From Tetrahymena thermophila SB210 (Eukaryota; Ciliophora; Oligohymenophorea; Hymenostomatida; Tetrahymenidae), in contig NW_002476434.1 in assembly GCF_000189635.1 (NCBI RefSeq), positions 310,001-374,000 on the forward strand: 64,000 nucleotides of DNA, read 5' to 3'. Position 1 is the stretch's first letter, and every line of letters begins with the position of its first letter. This document shows, one piece after another, positions 7,485-57,764 of the stretch. The notes beneath the pieces were generated by a model. That model was not told where the DNA came from. It worked only from the letters and a program-made list of their open reading frames with translations, and ran no database searches. Position numbers and translations under genes: made by a program.

Positions 7485-8007
7485 TCAAAAATATTACAAA
7501 ATATTTTGATTATTCATAAAAAATGTAAATTTTTAATAATAGTATTATCATTAAATGTTATAAATTAATTTTCTAAATATAAAAAATAGAATTTAATCAA
7601 AATAATAATCCTAAAATAAAATAATTTAATTTAAAAAATATCTTTTTAATTTATTAAAATTTTACTCTCCAATCAATAAAATATATAAAAAGACTCCTTT
7701 ATAATTAATAATATAAAGAATTGTGATTATTATTAATTTAAATAGTCTAATTGTGATTTATGCAGTTGAATATAATAATAAATAACTGTTAAATTAATAG
7801 AAACTAATCAAGTAAAAAATCGAAAATTTAAATAACTAAATTTAAAAATATGTTTATTTAGATTTTTTTGGATAAAAGATAAAAAAAATTGATCATTTGT
7901 TGTACATACAATTACCTATTTTTAATTTATAATAGTAATTTAAGTTAAAAAAGAAATATAAAAAATTTACTAAAAGATTAAAAGATTTAAATGTTTTGGA
8001 ATTAGAA
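7485..8007 (+). promoter_or_regulatory. conserved leader of array copy 1
   Basis: This noncoding leader aligns with the segment upstream of copy 2 (about 12885-13430). Shared blocks include AATAGAATTTAATCAAAATA, CCTTTATAATTA, AGAATTGTGATTATT and TTTAAAAATATGTTTATTTA, in the same order and close to the start codon. The duplicated unit therefore included its own 5' flank, which probably holds the promoter and 5' untranslated region. No defined motif can be assigned. Confidence 0.6.
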
Positions 8008-11000
8008 ATGAAATAACAGTAATAGGATAAGGAATAATTTGCACAAGAGCTAACGATCTAAAAAAGCAATAGCTAGTCTAATAAAGAATTTTAAGATGGA
8101 AAATTAGATTAAGCTTCCTAAGGTACTAACTAGATCAATGAGAAAAACAAATTATTAAGCCATTTAAGCGAACAAAATAAAGATTCTTTAAGAGACAATA
8201 ATAGTATAGTAATGATAAAATTAATCTTACACAAAATAAAAAATAGCTGGATAAACCAGCAATTTAATAGACATATTCTTTAGATGAAGAAATTAAGGGT
8301 TATTTTCATTTGCTTTTAAATGAACAAAAAGAGGTCAAGCAACAAAGCTAACATTTTAACAGATTAACATATATCAAAAAAAAAATTATTAAAAAATCAA
8401 GAAAGCTTTAAAAAAATGTTAAAAGCTTCTTGTTTAAAAGAAAGTTATTCAGAATAATTTTGTTATTAGCTATAGAAGTTGTTGTTATAGGACTACGTTA
8501 GTTTTGACAACAATCTAAATATTTATTTAAAAAATTAGTTTTAATCAAATATATTTTTTTTATAACTAATGTATATTTGGTTTATTTTTAATATTTTTTT
8601 ACTTTAATATTCAATTAAATAATAGATTCAATATTCAAAAGAAAAATTCGTATCCAATCATTTTCAAGATTGTAAAATTATAGCTAATTTAAAATTTATG
8701 CAAATAATTAGTATGTATATACATACATAGTTTATATACTTGCTACTCTTAAATTTTACAAAATACTTATTAAATTAAATATATTCCATTTATATTTGGT
8801 TTTTGAGGCCGAATATACTTTTTAAAATTATTAAATTATTCGGTATACGGAAGAATCAAAAAAAGTCTTATTCGGTGAATCACTACTATTAACTTTTAAT
8901 TCTTAAAAATATAGGGTTTACGTTGTGGATTTAATTTAGACGGAAGCGAAATTTTATCTCATTCTCCTATACCACCAATAGCTAATCCATAATTTAGAAG
9001 CATGATTATTTTATTGAAAAATCTTGAAGATTTAAATAATTATAAAATTAATCATATCGAAAATATTTTTTAGGATTTTGATTAGATTGTTTAAGAAATA
9101 GCAAAAGAAGATCCTTTACTTATTCTTTAAAAGCCTACAGTATAAAAGATAAAAAGGTTTAGCTCAAGTTTTTTCTCAGTCTTAAATTTTACTGTAAGAA
9201 CTGATAAATCCAAATAATACATGGATAGATTAATAGATCAGTTTGACTTGTTTATAGAGTAATTAATTGATATTTTTATTAAAATTATTTAATAAAATAA
9301 AATTTTTTTATTTAAAATAGATCTTAATACATAAACAATTCTAGTGGTAAAAAATAATCGAAAATATTTATTTATTTATTTCACAATTGTTAAAAATAGG
9401 ATCTAAAACTTTTTGTAAACATACTTTAGCTTTCAGGTTCGTTATGGTCTTCATTCAATAAAAAGATTGATTATGAGACATTTAGTAGATAAATTACATA
9501 AGTCACTTAATTTATGAATAGCAATAAAAAAGCTATTCTCTAAATTACTTCTTTATTTTTTGATACAACTGAATATGATATATCTACAATTAGCGAAAGT
9601 ATGAACATAAGTCCAAAGCTATTGAAGGATTTTGCTAAAGTTTTCTTGAATAAATATAATTTTGATATAAAGGATTTTGAATAACTTCTTCTCTAGCAAA
9701 CTTAATACTCAGAAACTAATAAAAGGTAATTTATTTGAGAAAATGATTTTTAACACTTATCATTTGATATCTATTAGAGTAATTAGGAATATAATCAGTA
9801 TTAATAATGGATGGTTTGATAGTATAATGGATCTTGTAAAGTTTTCACCTCTTTTTTAGTATTCCTAAGGTTATTAAATTTTCTACTAGTTGCTTTACTC
9901 TTTTGATTAAGTAAAGAAATATATTTATTTATTGATTTAAATTACAAAACATTACTTATAATAAAAAAGATGAGTATTCAAAGCTAAAAGACTGAACCTA
10001 ATAAAGTAAATATACTAAGCTTAATTTTACTCTCACCAGATAGAGAAGAAAATAAATTAATGGTATAAAAGATACTTTTTAGATTATGTAAAGAGGTTAT
10101 TAAAGAATAACTTAAAAAAGCAAAAATTAAGAATGGTTAATTATTTATACGAAAATATTCTCATCTTATAGAAGAAAAAAAAAACAAAGAGAAAAATTAA
10201 TTTATGATAGAGGCTATGAATATATTATTGATAATTCATGGAAGTTCTTATTTGGAAAAAAAGAAGAGCTCATAAAGTAAAAATTTTTTGTTCAAATTTA
10301 TTTAACTTATTTGCATTTTTTTATAGCAAATTTATGAGTTATGCTTTTAATTTATCAGAAAGCTAAGTCAAGCTATTTAAAGTATTGACAATATTTAAAC
10401 CTAACTTGCATAAATTACATCAGAAAGAAATAAATTCAATTATATAAGATCCCTCTGTAAGTATTTTTTTAATTATTGAGATTTAAATTATTAATTTGTA
10501 TTGAAGATTAAAAATGGATTTGAGACTCTTTAGTAATTTGGGCTAATTGAAAAAGATATTAGAAAAGAATATTTTGATTTGATACTTGGTATAACAAGTT
10601 AGAGGGGAATCTTAACTTTAGATTCTCTAATTTCTCTATAAGTAACAAAAAAAACTCCTTTTTAAAAAAATTATTTTTTTTATTATGCAATATAGGATGC
10701 TGATAAAACTTTTGTATAAAATATTTCAAAAAATTTTAATGAGGAGGGAGAATAAGATTATCTAAAAAATAAATATTAAAATATACATTCTAGTTTAATT
10801 TTAAAGTCTCTCTATTTATGGAAAAAAATATCAGCAACTAAATGTAATCATAAGAAACTTAAAAATGAGGAGATTCTATAATAAATAGCTAGCACTTTAA
10901 CATTTTTAACAGCTCATATTGTTGATATATTGGAGTCTAAAACTTATTTATAAAACAATAATACTATTTCAATTTCTATGGATAGTGGAGATTAAAATTA

Positions 11001-12811
11001 CAAAAACCTAATTAAGCAATTTAACTCGTAAACATAATTATTACTTTAAGTTGATATCTTAAATAAAAATATTTTATATATTTGAATTTATTTTTTGTTT
11101 CAATAATTATTATTTTAAATAAAACAAGTATTTAGAAAATGCATCTGAAAATATTTCATTCATTGACGATCTAGAAATAGTTAAAACCTCTGATAAAACT
11201 TCTATTGCAAATGTAGTTTAGAATTTCTGCTATTTTGCTGACTAATTATCATCTACCGATATTTCTAGTTATCTTACTACATTTTTTACAGCTGATATAT
11301 ACACTATTATTGGAAAAAAACACTCTATTCCTGAATTTATGATGTAAATTCTCGAATTCTTTGTTTAAGGATAGCATTCTCAAGGATTTGAAAACAACTT
11401 TTAAGCACAGACTAAAATAACTTTTTTTACTAGTTACTTTAAAAAGATGGATAGTTTAATGAAACTTCTAAAAATTTTTCTAAGTTTTTTTATTATTTTA
11501 CTAAAATTATTTTGACTTATTAATTGCAAACATGTAAAAAAGAAAAAAATAAATAACTAAACAACGATTTCTTATACTTTTTGGAAACCTGTTTCAAGAT
11601 AGTTACTGATAAAGATATGCCATAATTTTTAAGAGAGGCATTTAACATTTTATAATCTGGAGAAACAAAAAATTCAGAAAAGATTCAAAAAGTAATAAAT
11701 AATTCTAAATTAGAATGTAAATTATAATATTAAATATTAAAAAATAATAGGATTTAATCAACTTTTTAGTGAAGAAAACATAATTAAAAGAATATTTAAA
11801 TATTAATAATGATGACAACTAGATAAGTCAAAAGTTTTATTTAATATTCAAATTGCTTTCTACAATATTTAATAGTCCAACTAAAACCTTGTAAGATTAG
11901 ACTGTAGTTTAAAGTATTACTTAGTTAATTCTTATTGCAGGAGAATAATCTGTTAGTTAGGAGCTAGTAAAAAGTTTGATTGGCATAATTTAGGGCAATA
12001 TTTCAAATATATTTACGTTAATTGGCTAATTTGATCTATTAAATCAGAGTGATTTAAAAACAATTTAAGAATTTATTACTACAACATAAAAATCAGTAGT
12101 TTTTTAAAACCGCAGTTCTCTAGAATAAATTAACGTTACTCCTTAGTAGGTTTTAGATGACTAAACGAAGGATATTCTTAAAAGAATAAATGAAGGAAAA
12201 GTAATTAATTTTTATATTACTTTAAGATAACAAATTATAATCAAATAATTATTTAGATAAATCTTTAGGATATTTTCAGAGTTTTAGTAAGTAAAGAAGG
12301 GTAGAATGGCATGATTAATATTGATACATTTTGTACATTCATAAATAGAATAGGTAAATATATATAAATTTATATATAATTTAATTTTAACTGTTTTTTT
12401 TATATGAAATGGAAGGCATTCTTTGTTATTATCAAAAAGACAGGTATCCTCTCAAGCTAGAAGTTATAATTCTTATTAAGTGAGGAAGAATTTGAAAGGG
12501 CTTTTGAGTATGTCAATATTAAAAAAATTAGTATGTCCCTATAAAAATTGGGTATATCTCCTGCTTTGTTAGCATTATCACTAGGCACATTAATATTAAT
12601 ACTTGTTTTATTATTTGTGTTCATATTTTTAGGGATTCAAGCCTTTACTTTAGGTGGAACATTTGGTGCAGTTATAAACTCCATAATTCCTATAACAGCT
12701 GCAACAGGTGCAGCTTTATCTTAAGAAGATAAATCCTCAAATTTGAACGAAAAAAATATTTAAAATACTATAAAAGAAATTGAATAAATTTTGAATTCAA
12801 AATAACTTTGA
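8008..12811 (+). pseudogene. giant membrane protein gene copy 1, internally deleted pseudogene
   Basis: Only exon 1 and exons 18-29 of the 29-exon gene remain. Exon 1 starts at ATG 8008, shifts frame near 8205-8212, keeps the basic stretch and first membrane helix, then leaves homology near 8492 and hits TGA 8505-8507. Homology resumes in intron 17 near 8886. Surviving exons: 8915-9258, 9321-9346, 9400-9725, 9778-9910, 9970-10276, 10327-10456, 10507-10641, 10696-11027, 11129-11691, 11751-12200, 12257-12353, and about 12400-12811. Lesions: exon 19 has lost exactly 200 nt; exon 22 is one base short (near 10220); exon 26 has a shifted acceptor and a missing T near 11400; the start of exon 29 is damaged. 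The C-terminal membrane helix and terminal TGA are preserved. It is closest to copy 2. With this many independent lesions a full-length product is not possible. Confidence 0.88.
8508..8885. other. unrelated filler at the copy 1 deletion junction
   Basis: About 380 bases between the two homologous parts of copy 1 match neither copy 2 nor the leader. It contains a cluster of TTCGG/CCGAA strings (8805-8875) that is unusual for this base composition. It may be an insertion at the breakpoint or divergent leftover DNA. Confidence 0.5.
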
Positions 12812-13430
12812 TATTCTTAAATTTATTTATTAATAAAAATATTTTTTTATTTTATGTTTAAAGAGATTGTTTTTGAAATTTTAAATAATTATTATGAAAA
12901 ATATTTTGATTATTTAATTGAAAAAAATTAAAATTATTACAAATTTAAAAAATAATAGCATAATAATTGAATGTAATAAATTTATTTTCTAAGTGTTGTT
13001 AATAGAATTTAATCAAAATAATAATCCCTAAATATAATCATTAATTTAAAAAAGATCTGTTTAATTTACTAAAACTACATATGAATTTACAAAATATACA
13101 AAAAGATTCCTTTATAATTATTAATATTAAGAATTGTGATTATTAAAAATATAAATAATGTAATTGTGAATTTTGTAATTGAATGTTACCATAAATATTT
13201 TAACCAATAATCACAAGTAACTTCTCAAGCAAGAATTGAAAGTTTAAATAATTAAATTTTAAAAATATGTTTATTTAGATATTTCTGGATAAAAGATAAT
13301 ACTTTGATAATTTGTTGTAAGTTTTATTTTCCATTTTTAATTTAAAAAATAGTAATATAAGTCCAAACAGATATATAAAAAATTTAATTTACTAAAATAT
13401 TAAAAAATCTATAGATTTTTAGTATTTGAA
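12812..13430 (+). promoter_or_regulatory. copy 1 tail and leader of array copy 2
   Basis: Roughly the first 70 bases are the 3' flank of copy 1 and also match the flank after copy 2 (TATTCTTAAATTTATTTATT then AATAAAAATAT). From about 12885 the sequence is the duplicated leader that also precedes copy 1, running to the ATG at 13431. No gene is present. Confidence 0.55.
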
Positions 13431-16400
13431 ATGAAATAAAATTAATAGGGTAAGGAATAATTTACACAAGAGCTAGCTATCTAAAAAAGTAATAGCTAGT
13501 ATAACAAAGATTTTTAAGATGGTAAATTAGATAAAGCTTCTTAAGGTACTAACTAGATCACTGAGTAGAATAAATTATTAAGTCATTAGAGCGAACAAAA
13601 TAAAGATTCTATAAGCCTAAGAGGTGATAATACTAACAATCTAATTAATCTTTCATAACATGAGAAATAGCTGGATAAATCAGTAATTTAACATATATAT
13701 GTTTAAGATGAAGAAATTAAGGCTTCTCGTAATTAGCTGATAAATTAGAGAAAAGTGGTTTAACGAAAAATTGAAACTTTTGATAGATTAGCATATTACA
13801 AAAAAAAAATGATTAAAAAATCAAGAAAGCTTTAAAAAAGTTTATATAGCGTATTGTTTAAAAGAAAATTATTTAGAATAATTTTGTTATTGGCTATAGA
13901 GGCTGTTGTTTTAGCATTAATAATAGCATTTTTCAATATTTTAGGCTATAATAGAGGTCAGATTTAAATTTATGCATCTGATTAAGTAGAAATTTAAGTA
14001 AATAAATGTGTTATCAAAATTATTGATTATGATAATAAAGATAAAATTGATTTAAATTATCTTTCAAGAGCATCTCTACCATCTACGATTGATGGGGATA
14101 TACTTATGGTATATTCATTTCCAGATATTTAACCTTATAAAAAAGATTACTCATTTTCAGTAAGTTCGTTTATTTATTATTAATTAGTTATTGATAGCTA
14201 TTTTTGTTCATTTAATTTTAATAATATTAGTAATAAAACTCAAAAAAGACTTTTTCATTCAGTAATAATGCAAATTACAAATCTTGTGAAATCGCCTTCT
14301 ATGTATATCAAAATATTTAATTGACCAATCTAAGCATCAATTGTTAAGAATAATAATGTGATATTTTAATTGATTCATCAAATATATCATTCACTTCATT
14401 AAGTATATAAGGACCTTAAGTATATCTTAATTCACCAAAACTAATCGCACAAGTATATTTTTAATATTTTTCTATTGCTTAATTAAATATTTTTTTTGTT
14501 TTTAAAACGCTTATAGAGTCTTTAATTTCTGACCTTTTAGGGAAATTTTGAAGTTAACAACTTCTAATTTTCAAACGCATCAGTTGAAACTTCAGAGGGA
14601 GATATAATTGTACAATCATTATAGGGGATAACTGCAACTGTACAATTAACAAATAAATATTACTGCGTATCAACATATTCTTTAACACCAATTTAAAATA
14701 CTATTACTAGCAATCCAGCAAGCTGTACTAATGGTAATATTTTTGTTATATTTGACATTTTTAATTTATCAAAAAATAAAAGTATTTCCTTATGGTACAA
14801 CTGATTATGACCCAAAAAATGTGATAGCTGAGAGATGCATTTAAGGTTCTATTACTATTCCATCAAATATAGGAGGAAACTAGAATCTTATTGCCAAAAA
14901 TACATTTGGTAACCTCTTTATAAATGTGCTTGAAAAAATAGGTTAGGCAGCTGATTAGATTCCTAATGGGTAGTATGTCTATGATTCATCTGTTTATGGT
15001 AAAAATGGAGATTAAATATAATTTTCAACTAATTCGTAGAGCAGGTTAAATGATTAAATGGTGTCAGCAAGTAATCCAAATGTTTATGATCCAATCTTTA
15101 TAATGAGGTTTGGATCTTCATAAATAGAGTCAAATACTTACTCATAGTGGCAAGTAATAATTATTTAATTATTTTCATCTATATGATTTTAAAATATTTG
15201 ACTATTTAAATTAAAGCTAACTTACAACCCAGCATATTCATACTTCAGGCCTTTTTGGTTAGGCACATTGACTCTAAGTCTGTTAAACTCTTAAAGGTAT
15301 GAAAATTAATTTGTACTTGCCCCAGGATTTTGTCCATATGTTAATTCATTGAGCTAAAATAGGCTTAACACAGTTAAACAATTGTTACAATAATAATTTA
15401 AATCATAGCAAAATTCTGCCTATTTTATTTTTTCTCTAGCTTGGTAGCCTTCAATAAGCTTGCCACCAATTAAATTTACTTAATCTGATACCTACAGTAG
15501 TTTGAGAGATACATCTCTTAGTGATAATTATGTTGACGATTGGATTTAATTCAATAAAAACAATGATGGTACAGTTTCAATCAACTATTTGAGTATATCT
15601 TAAAGCGGTAAAAATTTTGTTTATGTATACATTTATATGAATGGAATAATTATAATTAAAGGTGTTTTAGAAGCAGCAATAATAGTTAGCTTTATTTTAG
15701 CATCTATAGTAGGATTAGTCTTAATTGTTGGAATAGTTTATGTAATAAATGTGAACTATATCTATTTACTGGACCACATTTCTAATATAGATATCTATTC
15801 TAAAATCATAGATTCTTAGTAAAATCAAAATGAAAAAGGAATCAACAGTGATGAAGAATTAGAAGATTAAAAAGAGGAAGAATTAGCGGTATTTATTCTA
15901 ATATTTAGATTTTAAAACTTAAAAATCTTGAATTAATAAAAAGCATCAGTAAGTACTTGAGCAAGTTAAATAAAAAGATGTTCTTAAGATAGAGTATACT
16001 ATCAAAGGAATTCTTAAGCTATTTTTTAATTTAATCTTATTGTCTCCTCCTTTAAGTGCATATATTGATTAAGTTGTTATACTGTTTTATAAAGCTAGAT
16101 AAAATTCAATTAGCGAGTTTTATAAATTATTATTTAAAGAAGTATAAATTAATGAAAAAGCTTCTGATGATATAATCCATAATTTAGAAAAAGATTCTAT
16201 TGTAGGATCTGAATTGAAAGGACTTTATGAAAAATATTGCTATCTAAATTAAGTGCTTGAAAGAAAGTTAGATGAGGAAGAAAGTATTATTCAATTGAGA
16301 AAAAGAGGCTTTAAAATTATGAATAAATATGATGCTCTTATTTAATCTTATTCATATATCAAATATAATGGAAAAATAGTTACTATTTCTGATACTTAAA

Positions 16401-19400
16401 ATAAAGATTCTTTATAACTTTTTATAGAGTCTTCATGCACTCTTACAAAATTTCCAAATGATACAATCGACTCAATTTCATTCGAATAATTTTACAGTGT
16501 AATTTTATTTTTTAAATAAAAAATAAATATGAATAATTTATAAATTTACTTTAGGATTTTTGTATTATGAATCATATTCCTAAACAATCTATTAGTGAGG
16601 GTTAATTGCAAAGAGATTATGGTGTTGAAACCAAATATGATCCCCTTTAAGTCATAGAAAGAGATCCTAGCTATAATCTACTGAATAAAAAGAAAATGTT
16701 TATTATAGATAAAAAAAGAGTAAATAATACTTTTAAATTGCTACTGTCTAAAAATCTCTAAGGAAAACAATACCAAACAGATGAAATGGAAGAAGTTAAG
16801 AAAGAGTTATTTTCTCCAGATTTTTGGTGGTTTTATGATGCTGTTACAGTTTTAGCCCATTTGGGATCAGTAGTCATATTGGGATGTCCTTTTATTGTTC
16901 TAATAATCTTTATTAGGATGCTTCAATCTAATTATTCTTCTGTTCCTATTCAGAGATTAATATACAGGTAATTAAATTTATGGAAAGGCTTTTAAATTTT
17001 TGTTAATTTATAACTTAAATATTTTTTTAATGCTTTGGTTTTCTTTTAAATTCATTTTTTTATATTTAAAGAAAAACCATTTTGAGTTATTAAAATTTAC
17101 ATTTATTTAAATAAAGAAGTTAAATTTTTCTAGAATGATTAAAAAATAATAAAAGTTTTTCACAATAATTTTCAGAATTTTTTAAAATTTAAATATTTAT
17201 TTATCATTTAAATTACCAAGCATTAATTAAAAATTAAATAATATCAATTAATTTAATCAAAAATTAATTATCATAATTAAATATTAATTAAATGTTTACA
17301 AATTATTTGAGAAAAAATAAAAAAAATATTTTTAAAAATTTTATTTTATCAAAAAAGCTATGATATATTAGAAGAACCCTCATCTATACCGTATAAATTA
17401 ATGTCTGACAGCAATGGTATTGCTATAATTGTTATCATCTCTATTATATTTTTAGTTCTTTCATCATTTGATTTAGTTCATTACTACATCTTTATGACAA
17501 TCCCTTAAGAAAGATAATTTTAAGATTATAATAAATCCAGCTAAGTCAGAAAATTAGCTTCTAAGATAATGTGGGTGCTTGCTTTATTAGTTTTGTATGG
17601 AATTGGTGTTTATTTAAGCTTGATAGGAACATGGCTCATTTTGAGTGCTATTATTAATCCAAATGCATTCTTACCATACGCCACTTCAGCTGCTACTTTT
17701 CTTACTTTAGTCGCAAGAAAATACCAGTAAAATTTTCATCTAATTTACTTTATTTTTAAAGTTAAAAAAAATTTTTGACACTTATTTCACAAATTTATAT
17801 ATATCATACAGAATGTTGAAAAGAATATTGGACCAAGGAGTTAAACTTTTAACAGATTATTTGAAAGGGTTAGCAGAGAAACAATTTAAAGATATGCTCA
17901 AAAAATTAGATATTGGAGGCAAGGTTGATTAGCTTGTTCCAACAGATTAAATAAAAAGGCTATGCTAGGAGGCATCTTCTTATGGCTTAATTGATCAAAA
18001 GTTAGCTGAAAATATATAGGATAATATTGAGATGATGGTTAGAGACCCTGAAGCTGTTGCTCATCTAGGTAATGAGGTACTAAAAATTGCGCAAGATCCT
18101 AAACAGTATGCCTTAAGTATTATGGAAAAGTTAGAAGAAAAAGCTAAACTATAACTAGAGCAGCAAGTAATAAATTTTAATATTACCTATTTTATTTAAA
18201 ATAATTTTTTCTTAGCTAAAATAATATCTACCAATAATGGCTCAAAGTCTGACATAATTGCTATTTTCAATTTTAAGCAATTAAAAAGCAAGATTAAAGA
18301 CAGAATTAGGAACTGTTTTATCAGACTTAAATTTAGAGATCCAAAACAAATTTTAAAAAAATGTTGATAAAAAAATTATGAATCAACTAGAATTGTTGCA
18401 AGGTCCTATCTTAAAATTATTATTTGAGTGTTTATCATCAGACAATCAAAATAGGAAATAAAAGGTAAATGCCATCTTATAGTAAGTGAGTTACTATATA
18501 TCTTCTCTAGTTTTGTAAAAATATCCTTACTCTGAAGAATAATATAACGCTTTTAAATAAGCTGAGAGAGCACTTGATATTGATGTGAATATTTAAAAAA
18601 AGAAAGGTGGATATGATTTTAAGCAATTGCTTTAATCAAAACTCAAAGAATTGGATAATAATGTAGTCACTATTAATGAATAAATGGTCTAAAAAGCTAT
18701 AAAAACTATCTTCGAAGGAATGTATAACATTTTTAATGAAGGATTAAAGAATAATGTTGAAGTAATTTAATTCATTTTTTTAAATTTAAACTTTAATTCA
18801 TAAAATAACTAAAGGGAATGTTAAAAGAATTTATCAAGATTTTGTAAAAATTTTAATCTATGCCAGTTTATGGTAATATCGAAGAACTATCAAAGTTTGC
18901 TAATTTATTAAATTTAGTAATAGAAGCATTTACTAATTTCAAATCATTATCAAGAAGTGAAATTTTAAGTGTTCTTAAAAAATTTATTTAAGACTCTAAG
19001 ATTGAAGATAAATTTAATATCTGCTAATTTAGTATTATAGACTTTTGTGATTTCCTTCTTTTAATTATTGGTTCATTTAATTAAGAGCAAAAGACTCCTC
19101 ATGTAAACTAAATCAGAGAAATATTTACTTCTATTTTTAAAGATACTAAATTTGCTAATTAAACTGATATTAAAAGAATGTCTTCAATAGTAGCTTTCTT
19201 CATTTTAGGATTTAGAAGTAACTTATAAAATATACCTGTTGATGTTATTAAAGATTTATTTGAATGGCTTAGAGAAAAATTAAAAGATAACGAGAGCGAA
19301 TATAAGTTGAATGAATTTATTAAACTTATTTTAGATAATACAGGAAATAATAAAGGAAATACATCTTAAAAAAATTTGATTCTTATATAGAATCTTTTAA

Positions 19401-40100: not shown

Positions 40101-40412
40101 GAAGGTAGTAATTCAGAATAATTGAAAAAGAAATTTTAAAACATACAAACTAGTTTGATTCTAAGATCTTTATATCTATGGAAAAAAATGTCAGCAACAA
40201 ACTTTAATCATGAGAAACTTAAATCTCCTGAAGTTTTAAAACCACTAGCATATACCATAACATTTTTAACTGCACATGTCATAGATTTATTAGAGTCAAA
40301 ATCTAATGTATTGAATAATAATACTATTTCAGTTTCTTTAGATAACGAAGATATAAATTATAAAAATCTAATTGAACAATTCAATTCGTAAGTTTAAAAA
40401 TTATTTTTGTTT

Positions 40413-40443
<31 letters not shown>

Positions 40444-43399: not shown

Positions 43400-46300
43400 A
43401 TGAATTAAAAGGAAAAAGAGAAAGCATAAACATTTGAATAAGAGCTTGTTTTTTAAAGCAGTAGTAATTCAAATAATGAATATAAAAGCAACAAATTGGA
43501 TAAAGATTCTTCTCCTTTTGACTAGGTAATTGAGAAGAAAAAATTGCTGAGTCATGAGATGAATATAAACGAAGTCTACTTAGGCTAAAAAAATGAAGAG
43601 AGCAGTAAATAAATCTTTCCAGTCTAAAAAACTAAATCACTTGATTAGCCAACAGGTTAGAATACTTAGGCCTAAGATAAATTTGAAAACTAGTAAGATG
43701 AAGAGGCCGATGTCTCTTCTAATGAACTAATAATTTAAGAAAAAGAAGACAAAAAATAAATGAATTCAATCAAAAAGTTTAAATAGTTCAACAAAAAAAT
43801 ATTTAAAAAAACAGCCAAACTCTAAAAAAGCATCTTTAATATCCTGTTTAAAAGAAAATTATTCAGAATAATTTTATTGCTAGCAATTGAAGTGGTTGCT
43901 ATAGCTCTATTTATAGCTTTCTTTAATGGTTTAGGTTATAGTAGAGGTTAGATTTAAATTTATGAAAGCGATCAAATAAATATTCAATTAAATAGGTGTG
44001 TTATCAAAATTATTGATTATAATAAAAAAGATAATATTGATTTAAACTACCTTTCAAGAACATATCTACCTGATTAGATTGACGGAAACATACTGATGGT
44101 CTACTCGTTTCCAAATCCATAGCCTTACTAAAAAAATTACTCATTTTCTGTAAACTCTCTAAATATTTTTATTGATTAATTTAATCTTTTTTAAATAAAA
44201 TAAGTAATCAAACTCATAAAAGACGTTTTCTTTTGATAATAATGCAAATTATAAATCATGTTAAATTGCATTCTATGTATACCAAAAGACTTAATTGAGT
44301 AGTTTAACAATCAATTGCTTAGATAAACAATGTGATATTTTAATAGATTCATCTAATATATCCTTTACTTCATTAAGCATATAAGGACCTTAAGTCTATC
44401 TTAATTCACCAAGCATAATAGTATAAGTAAGTTTATCTTTAATACATTTTGAATTTTATTTTATAGTTTTTTATTTTAAAAATGTATTTAGGACTTTTCA
44501 TTTTTGACTTTCTAAGGAAATTTTGAAGTTAACAACTTCTAATTTTCAAAAGCTTCTGTAGAAACTTCGGAGGGTGATATAATTATACAATCTTTATAGA
44601 GTATTACTGCAACTGTATAGCTAACCAATAAGTATTATTGTGTCTCAACATATTCCTCAACTCCTATACTGAATACGATTACTAGTAATCCAGCAAGCTG
44701 CACTCTTGGTAACATATTTATGAATTTATAAATTCTTAAAATATTTTAAATAATAGTATTTCCCTATGGAACAACTGATTTTGATCCTAAAAACATGGTA
44801 GCTGAGAGATGTATTTCAGGTTCTATTACTATTCCTTCAAATATAGGAGGGAATCAAAATCTTATTGCTAAGAATACATTTGGTAACCTTTTCATAAATG
44901 TACTTTAAAAAGTAGGGTAAGCAGCAGATTAGATCCTCAATGCATAGTATGTTTATGATCAAACTATTTATGGAAAGAATGGAGATTCAATATCATTTTC
45001 AAATAATTCATAGAGCAGATTGAATAGCTAGATGGAAACAGCAAGTAATCCAAATGTATATGATCCAATCTTTGTTATGAGGTTTGGATCTTCATAAATA
45101 GAGTCAAATACTTACTAATAATGGCAAGTAATAATTTTTTTATTGAATAAAATTTTTAAAAGTTTATCATATTTATTTAAAGATAACATATAATCCAGCT
45201 TATTCATACTTTAAACCTTATTGGTTAGGGGCATTGACGGTAAATCTTCTTAATTCTTAAAGATATTAAGATTAATATTTTCTCGCACCAGGATTTTGTC
45301 CTTTTGTAAATTCGTTGAGCTAAAAGAGGCTTAACTCAGTAAAAGAATTGCTAAAATCATAGTTTAAATCATAATAAAATTCTGCATATTTCATTTATTC
45401 TCTAGCTTGGTAATCTTCAATCAGCTTGCCACCAATCTAATTTACGTAAACTGATACATATAGTAGTTTAAGAGAAATATCTCTTAGTGATAATTATGTG
45501 GACGATTGGATTGATTTTAATAAAAATAGTGATGGCAATATTACAACAACTTAATTGAATGTATCCTAAAGCGGTAATATTTTATCATTTTTACTAATAA
45601 ATAAATAACTATAATTTATTATTATAGGAGTATTAGAAGCAGCAATTATAGTTAGCTTTATATTAGCATGCATAGTAGGATTAGTCCTAATAGTTGCAAT
45701 AGTTTACATAATAAATGTTAACTACATCTATTTACTCAATCACATATCTAATATAGATACCTATTCCTAGATTTTAAATAATCAATAAAATCAAAATGAA
45801 AGAGGAATAGATAGTAATGAAGATCTTGAAGAACAAAAAGAAGAAGATTCTGCAGTATTTATATAATTTTTAAAATTCAAGCCATATATTTTTATTTATC
45901 ATAACACAAAATAAATAGTAAATACCTGAATAAATTAAGTAAAATGAAGCTATAAAAATAGAGTACTCCATAAAAGGAATTCTTAAGTTGTTTTTTAATT
46001 TAATCTTATTATCTCCTCCTTTGAGTGCATATATTGATTAGGTTGTTATACTTTTCTAAAAAGCTAGATAGAATTCTATCAGTGAATTTTATAAATTGCT
46101 CTTTAAAAAGGTTTAAATTAATGAAAAAGCTTCTGATGATATTATCCATAATTTAGAGAAAGATTCAATAGTAGGATCTGAGTTGAAAGGACTGTATGAA
46201 AAATACTGTTATCTAAATTAGGTGCTTGAAAGAAAATTAGATGATGAAGACAGTGTTATTTACCTATAAAAAAGAGGTTTTAAGATAATGAATAAATATG

Positions 46301-49300
46301 ATGCTTTAATTCAGTCTTATTCTTATATTAAATATAATGGAAAAATAGCATCCATCTCTGATACTTAAAATAAAAATTCTTTGTAACTCTTTATAGAATC
46401 TTCATGCACTCTTACTAAATTTCCGAATGATACAATTGATTCAATATCGTTTGACTAATATTACAATGTACTTTTTTTATCAAATGAACAATATTAACAT
46501 ATTATCTTTATTTAGGATTTTTGTGAGATGAATCATATTGCTAAATAAACAATTAGCGAAGGTTAATTATAAAGAGACTTTGGTGTTGAAACAAAATATG
46601 ATCCATTATAAGTGATAGAGAGAGATCCAAACTACGATCTTAAAAAAAATAAGACTATGTATATTGTAGATAAAAATAGAGTTAATAATACCTTTAAGCT
46701 TCTACTCTCAAAGAATCTGAAAGGAAAATAATTTAAAACAGAGGAAATGGAAGAAGTTAAGAAAGAGTTATTTTCTCCAGATTTTTGGTGGTTTTATGAT
46801 ACTTTGACAGTTTTAGCTCACTTAGGATCAATTATTATTTTGGGATGTCCTTTTATTATCCTGATTATTTTTATTAGAATACTTCAATCCAATTATTCTT
46901 CAGTTCCTATTCAGAGATTAATTTTCAGGTAAACTATTATTCTTGTCTTGTTATGAATTTAAAATCAAATATTTTTTATTTGAAAGATTGATTGGCACTT
47001 TTTTAAAATTATATAATTCTCAAGTGATTTAGTAATTTTAAACATTTTAAATGGCAAAATCACATTTTATAACAAATATAAGATTTGAAATTTTATCTAA
47101 AATTGTTGAAAATAATAAGCTATATTTAGGTAGTCATAAATTAATCAATAAAATTAGAAAAAGATTTAACTAAACTAAATGAATATTATTTCAATAATAA
47201 TAAAATATCATTTTTTAAATGTTTAATTTTGTAATCAATAATAATTTGTTTTTTATAAAAAGCTATGATATTATAGAAGAGCCCTCGTCTATCCCTTACA
47301 AATTAATGTCTGATACTGGTATAGTTATTGCAATTACTGTTATATCTCTTATTTTCTTAGGTCTTTCATCATTTGATTTAATTCATTATTATATCTTCAT
47401 GACAATCCCTTAAGAGAGGCAATTTTAAAATTATAATTAATCAAGTTATATCAGAAAATTAACTTCAAAGATAATGTGGGTAATTGTTCTGTTTGTTTTA
47501 TATGGTGTTGGTGTGTATTTAAGTTTAGTAGGAACATGGCTCATCTTAGGTGCTATTATTAATCCAAATGCATTCTTACCATATGCAACTTCAGCTGCTA
47601 CTTTTCTTACTTTAGTTACTAGAAAATATTAGTAAATTTTATTTAATATTTTCAAAAAAAAAAATTCTCAAAAAATTTTTTGAAAATAAAAAAAGAATTC
47701 TAAAGCAGATATTAGATTAAGGAGTAAAACTTTTAACAGATTACTTGAAAGGGTTAGCAGAGAAATAGTTCAAAGATATGTTAAAAAAATTAGATATTGG
47801 AGGTAAAGTTGATTAATTTGTCCCGACTGATCAAGTAAAATCACTATGCTAAGAGGCAGCAAATTATGGCCTAATAGATCCAAAGCAATCTGAAAATATA
47901 TAAGATAATTTAGAGATTATGGTTAGAGATCCTGAGGCTGTTTCTCATCTTGGTAATGAAATGCTACAGATTGCATAAGATCCTAAATAATATGCAATAA
48001 GTATTATGGGAAAATTAGAAGAAAAGGCCAAGCAATAGCTTGAATAATAAGTTAAATATTTATTCTTATATTTTTAATTTAATAAAAAATTTCTATTTAG
48101 CTTAAATAATACCTACCTATCATGGCTCAGAGTCTAACTTAGCTAATTTTTACTATTTTAAGCCGTTAAAATACAAGATTGAAAACAGAATTAGTAACTG
48201 TTCTATCAGACTTAAATTTAGAAATCTAAAACAAATTTAAAGAAAAAGCTGATAAGGATTTAACATAAAAACTAGAAATTTTATCAGGACCTATCTTAAA
48301 ATTAATATTTGAATTTTAGTCATAAGACACTTAATCTAGGTAAGAAAAAAAGAATGCTATTTTATAATAAGTAAGTTACTTAATATCAACTATGGTTTTG
48401 TAGAAATTCCCTTTCTCAAAAGAAAATTATATTTAAATTTAATCAGAAGATAAAAATTTGAAAAATGAAGTTAATACTCAAAAAAAGAGTGGAGAAGGTT
48501 ATGACTATAAACAACTATATCAAGAAAAGCTGAAAAAATTTAATAAGAGCGAAGTTTAAATAAATTAGCAAACAGTATAAAAAGCATTACAAACTATGTT
48601 TAATGGAGTATATAATATATTTAATGAAGGCTAAAAATAAAATTTAGAAGTAAAAAAATAATTTTCATTCTTTAAGTTTATTTATTTTTTTAAATTATTA
48701 AATAATTTTAGGGAGTTTTAAAAGAATTCTTGAAAATTTTATAAGAATTTCAATCTATGCCAGTTTATCCTAAATTAAAAGAAATGTCTAAATTTACTAG
48801 TCTATTGAGCTTAGTAGTAGAGGTCTTTATAAATTTTAAATCATTGTCAAGAAGTGAAATTTTAAGAATGCTTAAAAAGTTTATTTAAGACTCTTAAATA
48901 GAGGATAAATTTGATGTTTGTAAATTTAGTGTAATTGATTTTTGTGACTTCCTTCTTTTGATTATTAGCTCATTTAATTAAGAGTAGAAGACTCCTGATG
49001 TAAATCAAATGAGAGAAATATTTATTTCTATTTTTAAAGAAAGTCAAAACGCTGATAAAACTGATGTCAAAAAGCTGTCTTCAATTGTTGTTTTCTTCAT
49101 TTTAGGATTTAGAAGTAACTTACAAAATATACCAGTTGACGTGATTAAAGATATATTAGAATGGGTTAGAGAAAAATGCAAAGATGATAATGGCTTATTT
49201 AGATTGATTGAATTTATATAGCTTGTTTTAGATAATAAAGGAAATAGTAAAGGAAATGCATAATAAAAAAAGCTAATACTTATATAAAATTTACTGTGTT

Positions 49301-52300
49301 TACTTGAGAAATTATTTAACAATAAGATAGGTTAAATAGAGAATATGCAGGTAGGTTCGCAAAGAATTTATGGTGTATCAAAGGAATTTTAGAAATTCTT
49401 TTTAAAAATTATATTTTGTAAACATGGAAATTTTACAAATTAATCAGATTGGGAAAGTCTTACACAATTAAATCATTTTTAAATCATTTCTAAAAAAATG
49501 AGGATGTCCCCATAAGATTTAATTGGTTTAATATAATTCACGCTCAACTAAAATACATTGCCATAATACTAAAGTTTTATAAGAATGATTCTTAATTAAT
49601 ATAAGGTAATTATTTAATTAATAATATTAATTAATTTTTAAAATTTTTTTTAGCAAAAAATTATTGTTTGTTAAAATTGATTGTTTGATTTACTATTTCT
49701 AAATTTATTGAATAATTTTAAAAATTAATGTAGATTTAAAAGAAAGCTTAAAAAAGATTAAATCAACTTATCGTGTTTGTTTTGTCTACAGATGATTATG
49801 ATCTTCACGAAGTTTTCATTGAATTAGATATTGAAGATAAAATAGAATTTTTGTTTCTTGAAAAAAATAAAAAAGAAACATTAAAAAAGATAAATTTTGA
49901 AGATTTTAAGACAATTCTATAATTTTTAAGAGGAAAATATGACTTTGATCTATTTGAGTCACAAATTACCTAAATATTAGATAAAAACTTCCCTGATTTC
50001 CAAGGATATATGTCTAACAATACTGTTGGAAAAAACAAAAGTGCTAATATCATCAATTTTATCAAAAATATTAAATTTAAAAATTAAGCATTTTCTTACA
50101 TGTTGAATAATATACAAATTGGATAAATCACATACTAATAAATTGCACAGCTGATTAAACATTTGTAAATTGGAGAAGAATAAGGTGTTGATAGCAAAAC
50201 AGCAAATTTATTTGGAAAACTAATATCTTTGACAAATTTAAATAGTTTAAATTTAACTTCATCATCCTCTGTTTTCAAAGAATAAGTTTAAAACCTTGCC
50301 ACGATTATTAATTTAGACGAGAAAATAGTATAGTCTTTTTTATAATTAGTATTTTGCCCTGATGATAAACTATTCGAGTAAATTAAATTTATTTTTTTAC
50401 TGGTGGTATACTATATTAACATTTTAAATATAGGTAATTTAATGATTGCTTTTAGATGCAAATAAGTGGTCTTAATTATAGTTAGTTTATAAACCATACT
50501 GTATTTAACGTGAAAGAAATAGATGATTACTAAAATTAACTTACCAAAATAAATTAAACACTTTTCTAAAATAAAATTCCTATACCTTTACTTAAGAGCA
50601 TAGTTGTAGACATGTAGATTCCATAAAATATGGAAACTATTTAATTCTTGTTGCAGCTCACCAACTAAGAAATCCCTAAAAGCATTAATAGCTTTATCAA
50701 GTTTGTATTTAACTCTTAAATGAATTCAGAAAAAGAAGAATTTATTTAATTAATACTTTAAAGTTAAAATAGTGTTACTGAAAAAAATTACTTAGGTGTT
50801 TCAGGATTAGTAAACATGTTTACAAACACTAAAAGCTCTGTCAAGCTTTAAATTCTTCTTCAATATTTAGCTGACTCTGACAATTAGTATATTTTATTAA
50901 TAGCTTGTATGTTTTGTTATTTAGAGGGTAGAGCAGAAGGAATATTTATAAAAATAAATGACAACTAAAGCAATAAAAAAAACACATTAAAGCTCTCAAT
51001 TGAACAATACTTATCAAGATAATTAGAGATTAAAATAGAATTTTTTGAGGCATTCCAAGCAATTTTTTGTAGCAATATACAACAATTTTCCTCTGCTCTT
51101 ATCAAACTTTTTAGATAGATCGATTACCAAGAGCAGAGATTAATAAAAGAATTCAGTTAATAAGGAATTAAATCAAATTAAGTTGCTCCAGATGGAAAAT
51201 CTAATACAAAAACATAGATTTATATGGAAATTGTAAAAAATAAAACAGAATTATCCTTTAAAGAAGCATAAACATAATAAGAAAATTTTGTAAATAACGT
51301 CACTGTTTCTGATAAAGAAGTTGAGCAATACCTCAACTTAAAAAGAGGTTAATCTATTAATACTTCCTTTTTTAGTAGAGAGCTCAATATCCCTCTTGAC
51401 ATTGTGGAATTCTTTTAGTATATTTATTAAATAAAAAGTGCTGAAGACTATTAATCTATAAATAAAACATTTGAAGAAATGAAAAACAGCTCATCAGTAA
51501 TTTCAGTCTTGAAAAACATAAACTTAGAGTTAAAAGATCTTAAAAATTGCATAAAGTTATTTTATAAAATGATTGAAATATAAGAAGTTTAATAACTTTA
51601 AGAAGCATTTAATTTGCCTTCTACTGTGAATGTAGAAGCATTACAGAATCTTTTACTTCTCGATTAAGATTTTGATGATTTTGCAAATATAGAAGACAAT
51701 AGAAAGTTATTATATAATTCTTTAAACTAAAATACAATAAATTAAAAATTTGAAATAAAACCATATTGGTCTTCTTTTATTTTCTGTTTAACTAAAAATT
51801 TTGTTTTACTTGAAGCTTTTGCTAATAAAAACACTTTACTCCAGCAAGCGACTGATAAAGACCCATAATTAATATCTATTTTCTAAGGTTTTATAGGGTA
51901 TAATATTTATTTCTTTATCAAGCTTTTACAAATTTATTATATTTTAAATAAAGGGTCATTTAGAAGAGAAGTTGTGAATTGCCAATCGAAAAAATATATT
52001 AGAGTATTTATTTGCTTTATCAGTAAGAAATTTTAGTTAAGAAAAAAGAAAAATCAGAAAATTAAGATTATGATGAATATTTTGATGATGAAGACGAAGA
52101 AGAAGGATCAAATGATTAATAGTAATCAGAAAATAAAAGTGCATCTGCTATCTAAATAGAAAAATCAAATAAATTTGAATATGCAATGTATTTACTATAT
52201 AAAGAACTTCAGTTAAGTCCAGTTTGGATTTTGCTAATGTCTGGAGATGTTTGTGCTTGGGATGAATACATTTTAAGATATTACTACACTTACAAATTTG

Positions 52301-55300
52301 ATACAAATTATTAAAATAATCCAGCAATATCTCTCATCTTAATTCTTCAACTAAGATAAACAGCAACTATTGTAAAAGAATTTATCTCCTACCTTGAGTA
52401 TTACATACAAATGTATAAGACGTATTCTGAGCAAGGTGAAACATAACAATTTATTGAGGTTGGGAAAAAAATTGTTTAATTTTTAGGAGAATATTTATAC
52501 CATTTAATTACCAAAGACGCCCACAAGTAATTTTACAATTTAAACTAATTTATAACTTAAAATATTTTAATAAAAAATAAGAATAACTGAGCTTGCATAG
52601 GCTTGTTAATTTCCTTAGGTTATACTAAATTGTTTAGCAGAAGAAGAATTTAATACAATTACAGATGAAAAAGAGAAAGAGTAGTACTAAAAGGATGATA
52701 TTAATAAATTATTTGAAAGAGCAGCTCGAATTTATAAGGATTAAATAGAGTAAGTATTTTAACTTTTTAAAATTCATTTAAATATTTTGAATACTAAAAA
52801 TAGGAAGTAGAATTATTATGACTTTATTTATGATTTATATTCTAATGTTGATAAATTGTGCTTTAAATAACCTAAAAGTACTAAAAAAGCAAATTAAGCT
52901 ACTCACTTCTCTTAAAGTCTATAATAAGATGGAATAGTCTAACTCCTTCTTATAAGCACATTGACACAATTATAGGATAGCAGAAAGTTTTTATTTTCAT
53001 TTAATGATAAAGGATGTGATCATTATAATTAAGTCAGCTATGAAATTGATTTTCTATTAACAACTTTTGATATCTTTTATTTTATGAAGTTGGATAATCC
53101 TAACTTTTAAAAGTTCTACATGCATCCAATTATAGTAAATATTATTATTTATTTATTTACTTACTTACTTATTTACTTTTCAATTATATTTATATAGTAC
53201 TTTGAATTATTAAAAAATAATTATTGCTATTTGTTAGCAATGAATTAAATAATATTTAGAAATAAACATAATTAAATAAATGATTATGTATATAAACAAA
53301 ATTTATTTTCTTTCTGATATAATTTAACATATTAAACAAAAAATAGTGATTTTATCATCAAAGTATTTAAAAGTTTGAGTAAAAATTATAAAAATTGCTC
53401 TGAATTTTCTAAATGATAACTTAAAATAATAAAAAAATAATATGAAAAATAAATTTTAAAATGAAAAAACCCCCATCAAAAGTTCATATTAGTTTTTAGT
53501 AATTATAAATAAGTTTTTTAATCTAAATATGTAATTATGAGAATAATGAGAGAGAAATTTAAATTTATTTTTATTTAAATAATAAAGGGCTTATGCTGTG
53601 GATTTAATATTGATGGCCATGAGATATTATCTCATTCTCCTGTAAAGCCAATAGCTAATTCAGATTTTAGGAAAAAGTTTATTGAACTTAAAAATCATGA
53701 TGAAAAAGAAAATTTAAAAATTGAATAGATCGAAAGTATATTTTAAGACTTTGGTTAGATAATTTAATAAATAGCAAAAGAAGATCCATCACTAATTCTT
53801 AAGGAACCTAATAATGAACCCAATAAAGAACCTAAAGAATAAAAAATAAAGAGATTTAGCTTAAACTTTTTCTCAAGCTTAAACTATTCTGTAAAAACTG
53901 AGAAATCAAGATAATTCATGAATAGGCTAATAGAAGAGTTTGATTCTTTTATTGAGTAATCAAAATAATTTTAAATTTTTAAATAAAATTAATAATTAAA
54001 TTTATAAATAGATCACAATATACAACTGATTCTACAGAGAATTTTTTTTATTTAAATTCTCATAAATCAGAGTAGCAAGAGTAATTAAGAGATGAAGTAT
54101 CATAAGAAGAAAAATCATATTTAGAGTTTGTAGAATCCCCTAATGCTCAAACTCTTTTGGGATTCTTTAAATAGGATTACGAGTGCTTATTTAACAATAG
54201 CGTAATGATACAATACTATCAAGAAGTAATTTAAATTTTGTAGCAATATTTTAATCTAAAGATTATTTTTTAAAATAGGATCTAAAATTATTTGTAAACA
54301 TACTTTAGTTATCAGGATCACTTTGGTCTTCGTTTGCTAAAAATACTGATAATGAAAAATTTACTAGATAAATTTCTTAAGCTACTTAATTTATGAACAG
54401 CAATAAAAAGTCTTTATTATAAATTGCTTCCTTATTCTTTGACGGAATTGATAATGATTTATCTACTATCTGTGAAAGCATGAACATAAGTCCAAAGCTG
54501 TTAAAAATTTTTTCTAAAGTTTTTTTGGATAAATACTATACTGAAATCAAGGATTTTGAAAACCTTCTGTCTCTGACTAAGTATTCTGAAACGAATAAAA
54601 AGTATTAATTAATATTTTATAAATTATAGTTCATAATATTTATCTTTTTACTTGTTTAATTTAGGGTAATTAGGAATATAATACATATATATAGTGGAGG
54701 GCTTGATACAATGTTGGATATCACAAAATTTTCTCCTCTATTTTAATATTCACAATGCTATTAAATTTTTTATTAGATGCTTTACTCATTTGATAGTGTA
54801 AATAAATAAATAAATTTAATTTTTATTATCATAAATAATTATTATTTAAAATAAAAAAAAAGTGGAGTATTCTAAGCTAAAAAACTGATCCTTGTAAGAT
54901 TAATATAGCAGAATAAGTTTTTCTTTCACCAGATAGAGAGGAAAATAAATTTATGCTATAAAAAATTGTTTTCAAATTGTGTAAAGAGGTTATGAAAGAA
55001 TAAGTAAAAAGAGCAAAAGATAATAATGATCAATCATTTGTAAATAAATATTCTCACCTTCTTGAAGAAGGAAAAAATAAAGAAAAAAACGAATTTGTGA
55101 TAGAAGCAATAAATTGCATTATTGATAATTCTTGGAAGTTCTTATTTAACTAAAAAGAAGAGTTGATAAAGTAAAATATTGATTGTATTTTACTTTATTT
55201 ATTTACTTATTAAAATTATTTTACAGTTAATTCATGAATTATACTTTCAATGTATCTGAAAGCTAAGTTAAACTTTTAAAGATTTTATGCATATTTAAAC

Positions 55301-57764
55301 CTAATTTACATTAATTGCAGTAGAAAGAAATCAATCAAGTTATTAAGGATCCACCTGTAAATATTTTTGATTTAATTCTCAATTTTAATAATAAATTATT
55401 TTTGGAAGATCAAAAATGGATTTGAGATTCTTTAGTAATTTGGACTTATTGAAAAAAATATAAGAAAAGAATATTTTGATTTAATACTTGGAATAACTAG
55501 TGACAGAGGATTTTTAGCTATAGATGCTCTAATATAACTTTAAGTAACTTTAATTAATTTTATTAACATTATAGATACTAATTTGCATTTATTATAAAAA
55601 AAGGATGCTGGAAAATTATTTGGAAAAAACAATTCTGTGGATTAACAACTTAATCAGGAAGGTAGTAATTCAGGATAATTGAAAAAGAAATTTTAAAATA
55701 TACAAACTAGTTTGATTCTAAGATCTTTGTATCTATGGAAAAAAATATCGGCAACAAACTTTAATCACAAGTAGCTTGATCCTTAATAAGATTTATAACC
55801 ACTAGCAAATACCATAACATTTTTAACTGCACATGTCATAGATTTACTAGAGTCAAAATCTAATGTATTAAATAATAATACTATTTCAGTTTCTTTAGAT
55901 AACGGAGATATAAATTATAAAAATCTAATTTAACAATTCAATTCGTAAGTTTAAAAATAATTTTTATTATTTTATTTTCATAAATCAAATTTAAATAATA
56001 AAAATTAAATTATTTTTTTTTTCAAATATTGATTTTATATTAATGTTAAATTAAAAAGATTTTTAGAGTGTGGACCTTAAGATATATCTTTTTTAGATGA
56101 TTTAGAAGTTGTTAAATCTTCTGATAAAACTTCAGTAGCAAACATTTCTGAAAGTTTTGGCATTTTAGCAAAATACTTAACTGCGACCAATATTTCTTGT
56201 TATATTTCAAAATTTTTCTCAACGAGTATCTATGATGTAATTGGAAGCACGCACGCTGTCCCAGAGTTTATGTTAAGCATCCTCGGATTTTTCATTTCAG
56301 GAATAAAATCATCTGAGATATAATTAGATAAATACTTTCAAAACGCAGATGAAAAAAGCTTTATTTTCTAATTATTGTAATAAAATGGAAAATTCACTGA
56401 AACTTCAAAAAATTTTGCTGAGTTTTTCTATCATTTTACAAAAATTATGCTAATTTATTAATTATAGATTAGTTAAGAGGAGAAAAATAAGCAGCTACTT
56501 GATGAATTTTATTTTTTTTGTTAAAACTGTTTCAGTATAGTTACTGGAAAAGAAATGCCTTAATTTATAATTGATTCCATTGGTGCTTTAAGAGATTTAG
56601 AATAAAAGTAAGTAGATGTTATAGTGAAGGTAATATTTTAAGCTGATTTAAAGAAAATATTTCACTTAATTTAATTTAATATAGGATTTGATTATTTTTT
56701 TAGTGGAAGAGACTAACTTGAAAGACTATTTAGAAATAAAAAATGAAGATAAATAAATTAGTCAGCAATTTTATTTAATATTTAAAATGCTTTCTACTAT
56801 ATTTAATCGTCCTATTATCAGTTTGTAAGATTAAACAGTAGTTTAAAATCTTAGCTTACTAATTCAAGTTTCTGGAGAGGAATTTATTAGTTAAGAGTAG
56901 GTATAAAGTTTGGTTGGGCTTCTTTAAGGAGATATTTCAAATATATTTAATTTAATTAGCTAATTTAATCTATTAAATTAGAATGATATGAAAACAATAT
57001 AAGAATTTGTTTCTACAACTTAAAAATTAGCTGTTTTTTCGAACCGTAGCTCTCTAGAACAAATTAAAGCAACTCCTTAATAAGTTGTAGATGACTAAAC
57101 AAAAGATATTCTAAAAAGGCTGAATGAAGGAAAAGTAATTACAATTTTTTACTTAGTATTAAAATAATTTAAATAAATAATTTAGATAAGTATTTAGGAT
57201 ATTTTTAGATCTTTAGTAAACTAAGAAGGTTAAAATGGAATGATTAATATTGATACATTTTGTACCTTCTTGAATAGAATAGGTAAATTATAAATCCTCT
57301 TTAACTTTTTTAGCATACTTCTTTAAAATAAAATACAAGGTATTACACTTAGTTAGCATAGAGCAAATGAAATTTTTGCAATTATCAAAAAGAAAAACAT
57401 ACTATCAAGCTAAAAAGAATAATTTTTATTAAGCGAAGATGAATTCGAAAGAGCTTTTGAATATGTTAATCTTAAAAAAATTAGTATGTCACTTGAGAAG
57501 TTAGGAATATCTGCTGCTTTGTTGGCATTATCTCTAGGCACATTAATACTAATACTAATTTTATTATTTGTGTTCATATTTTTAGGAATATAAGCATTCA
57601 CTTTAGGTGGAACATTTGGGGCTATTATAAATTCTATCATCCCAATGGCTGCAGCATCGGGTACAGCTGCATCATAAGATGATAAAACATAAAATTTGAA
57701 CGAAAAAAGTATTAAAAATGTGGTAAAAGAGATAGAACAGATTTTAAATTCAAAACAGCTTTGA
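43400..57764 (+). CDS. giant multi-pass membrane protein, copy 4, 3,993 aa, intact
   Basis: Exons: 43400-44149, 44205-44426, 44492-44708, 44757-45127, 45183-45573, 45628-45854, 45919-46467, 46516-46928, 47263-47631, 47696-48050, 48101-48649, 48712-49605, 49734-50377, 50434-51897, 51954-52526, 52582-52749, 52804-53134, 53588-53955, 54012-54225, 54279-54601, 54665-54797, 54863-55170, 55227-55356, 55409-55543, 55604-55944, 56059-56629, 56685-57134, 57186-57282, 57340-57764. They sum to 3,994 codons with every phase closing, which strongly supports the model. The architecture matches copy 2: basic run then TM1, ectodomain with the same eight Cys, TM2, a membrane cluster ending in NPNAFLPYATSAATFLTL, a long cytosolic region with an acidic stretch (DDEDEEE), a degenerate EF-hand-like motif, an LSEDEFERAFEYV helix and the terminal anchor. 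It is much closer to copy 3 than to copy 2. Exon 18 carries an extra PNKEP unit, and intron 8 has an insert. One donor is GTTAAA (exon 10). Function is unknown. Confidence 0.9.
46987..47149. mobile_element. possible 163-bp insertion with 7-bp inverted ends in copy 4 intron 8
   Basis: Intron 8 of copy 4 is 334 nt against 184 nt in copy 3. The flanks align (TTTGAAAG on the left, TTAGAAAAAGATTTAAC on the right), and the extra DNA begins with ATTGATT and ends with its exact reverse complement AATCAAT. A small palindromic-ended element is possible. The ends are short and A/T-rich, and no clean target-site duplication is visible, so chance is not excluded. Confidence 0.35.
53141..53178. repeat. TTTA/TTAC microsatellite in copy 4 intron 17
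   Basis: A run of ATTTATTTA then TTACTTACTTATTTAC follows the donor of the 453-nt intron 53135-53587. The equivalent run lies in intron 17 of copy 3. Confidence 0.7.

Follow-up and report, generated by a model that had tools for sequence, protein, structure and literature searches.

A tandem array of giant genes

The window analysed here is a 64,000-nucleotide stretch of the Tetrahymena thermophila genome (C114:310001-374000 of a 445-contig, 101.0 Mb assembly). A telomerase exon from this genome agrees at 100 of 101 aligned residues with 2r4g_A, the solved telomerase reverse transcriptase chain of T. thermophila, and the single mismatch sits next to an intron left unspliced in the query. The window contains an array of three full-length giant genes, two of them intact, together with one wreck. 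Gene models came from a compact HMM gene finder, for which the window served as training data, and were then corrected by hand from a three-way comparison of the copies; the features of the array are as follows.

8008..8500, + strand: copy 1 remnant, 5' piece; N-terminus (cytosolic) and start of TM1, from alignment to copy 2, end approximate
8915..12811, + strand: copy 1 remnant, 3' piece; equivalent of exons 18-29, from per-exon comparison with copy 2
13431-27409, + strand: copy 2, intact 29-exon gene, 3,963 aa; GT-AG introns, no internal stop in code 6
28127-42197, + strand: copy 3, 29 exons; exon 2 frameshifted, exons 3-29 open
29068-29073 (approximate), + strand: A run at the 1-bp frameshift of copy 3, from DNA alignment of copies 2-4, hand-counted from exon start 28985
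43400-57764, + strand: copy 4, intact 29-exon gene, 3,977 aa after the shift of one splice acceptor

Copies 2, 3 and 4 lie head-to-tail on the + strand, each with 29 exons and ~3,960 codons, and all 28 introns of each copy have GT-AG borders. The genetic code is table 6, and in-frame TAA/TAG codons number 267 in copy 2 and 282 in copy 4. Exon phases are identical between copies 2 and 4, exon length is the same in all three copies for 16 of the 29 exons, and lengths are equal modulo 3 for 28 of 29, the sole exception being exon 2 of copy 3. A sequence-only reading had described four 29-exon copies, with exon number, phases and most lengths identical in copies 2, 3 and 4; the arrangement and exon count of these three copies hold, as do the shared lengths and the phases of copies 2 and 4, but copy 1 is a pseudogene remnant and exon 2 of copy 3 breaks the pattern. 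An assembly artefact, in which the array would be the echo of one locus, was ruled out because the copies diverge in their introns and at silent sites, with dS of 0.87-0.90 for copy 2 against copies 3 and 4, and of 0.13 for copy 3 against copy 4.

The flanks of the array hold several other features. On the 5' side are two small single-exon models (window positions 2567-3019 and 3950-4396) whose starts read as signal-peptide-like and which have no Pfam match above the curated cut-off, and a direct repeat of ~150 bp (6212-6522; spacing 161 bp) with translations 80-100% identical. Just 3' of the array, a 669-aa model at 59014-61505 carries a PDIA6-like thioredoxin domain (E 2.3e-10) and a KDEL end. 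Elsewhere in the assembly, a 67-bp DNA match to an array exon, at 80%, was found at C358:50141-50207.

Decay of copies 1 and 3

Homology of copy 1 to copy 2 starts at the ATG at 8008 and stops at ~8500, with the reading frame already disturbed near 8206, and exons 2-17 have been lost. The exons that remain have suffered further losses, of 199 bp in exon 19, 1 bp in each of exons 22 and 26, and 28 bp in exon 29, and for exons 26 and 29 there is no AG where the acceptor falls in the alignment. In copy 3 a single extra base in the A run breaks the frame, exon 2 measuring 205 bp against the expected 204 bp. Over 3,609 codons of exons 3-29, we assigned 131 nonsynonymous and 111 synonymous changes to the copy 3 branch, compared with 77 and 111 to the copy 4 branch (Fisher p 0.009). 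Copy 3 therefore seems to be under relaxed constraint, in agreement with its frameshift. Alternatively, the frameshift could be a sequencing error, and the excess of amino-acid change could reflect functional divergence. With one of three full copies frameshifted and a fourth reduced to a wreck, the array fits a birth-and-death picture.

Related genes elsewhere in the genome

Genome searches recovered four full-length relatives and one fragment outside the array, and the full-length loci were the same whether the queries were pieces of copy 4 or distant members of the family.

C114, 1.740-1.757 Mb: paralogue A
C114, 1.764-1.782 Mb: paralogue B
C17, 1.227-1.244 Mb: paralogue C17
C426, 0.290-0.304 Mb: paralogue C426
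C114, 1.758 Mb: C-terminal family fragment

The family thus comprises at least seven full-length genes (copy 3 counted) and two remnants, a lower bound in that the genome search scores best candidates only. The uncurated models of A, B, C17 and C426 encode 3,966-4,949 aa; those of A and C17 are mis-spliced at their ends, and the true ends were read separately. Copy 4 shares 73% identity with copy 2 and 34% with C426, falling to 29-30% with A, B and C17, and B contributes 916 alignment columns that were not found in copies 2, 4 or C426. Paralogues A and B flank the C-terminal fragment in a second tandem array (C114, 1.738-1.786 Mb), ~1.4 Mb from the array in the window.

Architecture of the encoded proteins

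The proteins share an order of TM1, ectodomain, TM2, a conserved loop, a TM3-6 bundle, a giant region of ~2,600 residues, an EF region and a C-terminal hydrophobic segment. In copy 4 these parts map as follows (all coordinates computed by hand).

43925..45629, + strand, introns included: ectodomain, residues 176-645; eight invariant Cys, five NxS/T sites
45639..45713, + strand: TM2, from hydropathy
46783..47617, + strand, intron included: TM3-6 membrane bundle with a predicted sixth pass; contains the conserved AIINPNAFLPYATSAAT
57090..57518, + strand, intron parts included: decayed EF-hand region, from alignment with relatives
57519..57599, + strand: C-terminal hydrophobic anchor, from hydropathy

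Membrane segments were called at a hydropathy cut-off of 1.6, with the part of copy 3 that was compared beginning past TM1. TM4 of A falls under this cut-off, and the bundle would include a sixth helix, although hydropathy leaves the count of passes uncertain. There may also be an additional pass inside the giant region, since a segment there reaches 1.72-1.86 in six of the seven proteins (copies 2 and 4, the copy 3 part, A, B and C17).

The distribution of cysteines bears on which parts face the cytosol. The ectodomain of copy 4 has eight Cys, and every one is invariant among six proteins; of the 32 in the giant region, none is. This contrast suggests that the ectodomain lies on the extracytosolic, oxidising side of the membrane and the giant region on the cytosolic, reducing side. 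Two of the three Cys in the loop between TM2 and TM3 are likewise invariant in these proteins, even though the loop is placed in the cytosol. The layout proposed from the window alone, with eight conserved Cys between TM1 and TM2, a membrane cluster, a giant region and a C-terminal anchor, is borne out in outline: the Cys are retained across the six proteins, as in a separate alignment of five sequences, and hydropathy recovers the anchor segment. Profile comparison of 11 blocks of the giant region, two at a time, gave no internal repeat, the highest probability being 2.35%.

A shorter relative (C91:1452501-1460500, gene at about 2522-7778 within it; uncurated model of 1,545 aa) was reached through a weak match (E 0.005) in a genome search with distant members. 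Its ectodomain scored 124.5 over 289 columns against the family profile, whereas the reversed sequence scored 24.7 and none of 20 shuffles exceeded 25.1; these, together with two other blocks, are the valid controls. Six of the eight family Cys are retained. The match of its loop is collinear with that of the family but is not significant alone (E 0.08), the last 350 residues have no significant match to the TM3-6 region (E 0.67), and Pfam yielded no family at E<=1. As the model stops shortly past the last hydrophobic stretch, the gene appears to encode an ectodomain with no counterpart of the giant tail, and it probably belongs to a sister family.

Domain and structure searches

Domain scans covered five of the seven full-length members (copies 2 and 4, B, C17 and C426), or four for the membrane core, where copy 2 was left out. 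Pfam recognised no family at E<=0.1 in copy 2 (uncurated model, 4,003 aa); the best Pfam hit of the membrane core was DUF7874, at E 0.02 in one of four members. PDB profile searches with the ectodomain and membrane core gave nothing below E 0.47, and a PDB search with the largest helical exon likewise turned up nothing credible. Short peptide patterns from the membrane core confirmed no prokaryotic or viral relative in viral and genome contig collections that did not include other ciliates. The earlier impression that the protein matches no known family is thus upheld, in that neither Pfam nor PDB profile searches tied it confidently to a named family.

Two weaker resemblances deserve comment. 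The middle of the ectodomain resembles Toastrack (Pfam PF13349 DUF4097; LiaG-type), a domain whose fold is a right-handed single-stranded beta-helix, with sub-threshold matches in four of five members (E<=10; best E 4.5e-4) and a weak NCBIfam LiaG match in one of five (E 0.007). Copy 4, the sole member with a known score, nevertheless reaches 17.4 bits against a Pfam curated cut-off of 22.9, and the family ectodomain differs in having eight invariant Cys between two membrane helices; bacterial Toastrack has been proposed to be intracellular (PMC11237479).

The second resemblance is to an EF-hand pair (Pfam PF13499). EF-hand_7 was recognised in the C-terminal region of three of the five scanned members, presumably all outside the array (best E 1.9e-6); the C-terminal Pfam scan of copy 2 returned no EF-hand match, and copy 4 is presumably the other miss among the five. 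A family C-terminal profile had 21 PDB matches, with calcium-binding proteins at E 0.003 and worse; ryanodine and IP3 receptor chains were absent from these 21, as from the core and ectodomain searches. Calcium ligands of EF-hands occupy loop positions 1, 3, 5 and 12. As read from the alignment, in which the C17 row is incomplete owing to a false intron in its model, the array copies have lost ligands, among them the position-12 Glu, and in the relatives positions 3, 5 and 12 are kept, with Glu or Ser rather than Asp at position 1. Calcium binding by the relatives is therefore not assured and may be weak. The motif that had been described as degenerate and EF-hand-like has indeed lost ligands in the array, and because the relatives carry an EF-hand recognised by Pfam, it looks like a derived, decayed EF-hand.

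Conservation along the protein

The proportion of invariant columns, calculated with gapped columns left out, is 31% in the loop, 34% in TM3-6, 38% in the EF region and 43% in the C-terminal anchor and tail, compared with 19% in the ectodomain and only 7-13% in the giant region, the lowest value. One alternative explanation of the family is that the proteins are ion channels or transporters, in which TM3-6 would form a pore with the re-entrant-looking AIINPNAFLPYATSAAT, gated by the cytosolic part and the EF-hand in the manner of the giant intracellular calcium-release channels. The invariance of TM3-6, the conserved Pro and polar residues within the hydrophobic stretch, and the closeness of the EF-hand to a membrane segment are all consistent with such a role. 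The membrane core, however, has no Pfam or PDB channel match, and the PDB matches of the C-terminal profile include no ryanodine or IP3 receptor chain; we regard a channel as rather unlikely.

The proteins could instead be structural components of the cortex, giant skeleton elements anchored in a membrane, with no part in signalling or transport and with an EF-hand that is a leftover. The length and loose conservation of the giant region agree with this, as does the loss of EF-hand ligands in the array; conservation of the membrane core and C-terminus is nonetheless far above what a simple anchor would need, and we regard a purely structural role as rather unlikely. Both the channel and the purely structural element are serious rivals to the explanation we prefer, which is set out below.

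Selection on the array and its paralogues

Overall dN/dS was 0.25 for copies 3-4, 0.18 for both 2-4 and 2-3, 0.26 for A-B and 0.15 for A-C17; the ectodomain values for the same pairs were 0.11, 0.14, 0.11, 0.16 and 0.12, with 327 of 470 codons covered in the comparisons that involve copy 3. Copy 4 against C426 gave 0.42 overall and 0.41 in the ectodomain, at a dS of 1.4-1.6 that is near saturation. In the array pairs and in A-B, the ectodomain thus ranks with the more constrained segments of the protein. Higher ratios were obtained for the N-terminal tail (0.32 for 2-4, 0.68 for A-B) and, between copies 3 and 4, for TM2 (1.00 on 28 codons) and TM3-6 (0.46), short segments for which the estimate is noisy; the 0.70 obtained for A-B at the C-terminus is an artefact caused by mis-splicing at the end of the A model. 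In sliding windows, dN exceeded dS in 0 of 196 for 2-4, 5 of 181 for 3-4 and 4 of 190 for A-B. One of the five and one of the four reach the ectodomain's end, at low divergence (581-640 for 3-4, dN 0.03; 601-660 for A-B, dN 0.07), and in three of the windows for copies 3 and 4 dN also exceeds the median dS.

These estimates bear on the proposal, made from the sequence alone, that amplification of so large a gene reflects selection for diversity. With an overall dN/dS of 0.18-0.26 and ectodomain values of 0.11-0.16 for the array pairs and A-B, this proposal is not supported. A diversified surface recognition family, in which tandem copies would provide varied ectodomains for sensing or for recognition of self, can point to the tandem copies themselves, to an ectodomain predicted to be exposed, and to N-terminal tails that vary. 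Against it stand the low ectodomain ratios in these same pairs, the absence of any window with dN>dS between copies 2 and 4, and the decay of the copies, and we judge it very improbable.

Interpretation

The explanation we favour, tentatively and with somewhat less than even confidence, is a birth-and-death tandem array of giant multi-pass scaffold or tether proteins that are calcium-tuned in the relatives with an EF-hand. The scaffold or tether role is one that we infer from the layout. The protein would reside in a peripheral membrane with its ectodomain outside the cell or in a lumen, and the long cytosolic part would act as a scaffold or spacer between the N-terminal bundle and the C-terminus, where the protein would enter a membrane for a second time. 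Calcium would tune this C-terminal junction in the relatives that have an EF-hand, and the array copies, having lost ligands, would be calcium-insensitive versions. The array turns over by duplication and decay, copy 1 being dead and copy 3 broken, and purifying selection maintains copies 2 and 4.

One may postulate a more specific version in which the protein bridges two membranes, with a bundle in the plasma membrane, a cytosolic span of ~2,600 residues, an anchor in the alveolar sac or ER, and calcium sensing by the EF-hand; the array would then consist of calcium-blind paralogues. We think this version quite unlikely to be correct. If it were true, the family would offer candidate molecules through which alveolates might couple their plasma membrane to cortical calcium stores.

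Apart from mechanism, the array offers a clean case of duplication followed by decay, in which intact, freshly broken and wrecked copies adjoin one another. The seven full-length genes, each some 4,000-5,000 codons long, are nameless and strongly conserved at both membrane ends, and they form a tractable unknown given that tagging and knockout are possible in T. thermophila.

Comparison with known systems

We found no published description of the giant family in titles and the openings of abstracts, a weak negative given that the literature is not searchable by sequence, and none is given in the available parts of PMC10901506, PMC6564038, PMC9159632 and PMC11237479. The proteins of the Tetrahymena mating-type complex (MTA, MTB and MRC1-6) are also large membrane proteins, of 92-212 kDa, and in three of them (MTA, MTB, MRC1) five TM helices are accompanied by a growth-factor-receptor Cys-rich domain (PMC10901506). 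The giant family differs from them in that its proteins are bigger, at ~4,000 residues and more, and in that Pfam, at E<=0.1, did not find this Cys-rich domain in copy 2 (4,003-aa model). The tandem arrangement recalls that of other T. thermophila tandem families such as the LRR genes, although at the same threshold copy 2 has no LRR or other Pfam domain. Tandem duplication is frequent in species-specific Tetrahymena genes, as described in PMC6564038, and the form of the array is therefore ordinary; as far as our searches reach, the protein family itself may be undescribed, and it is the family, rather than the form of the array, that is the interesting part.
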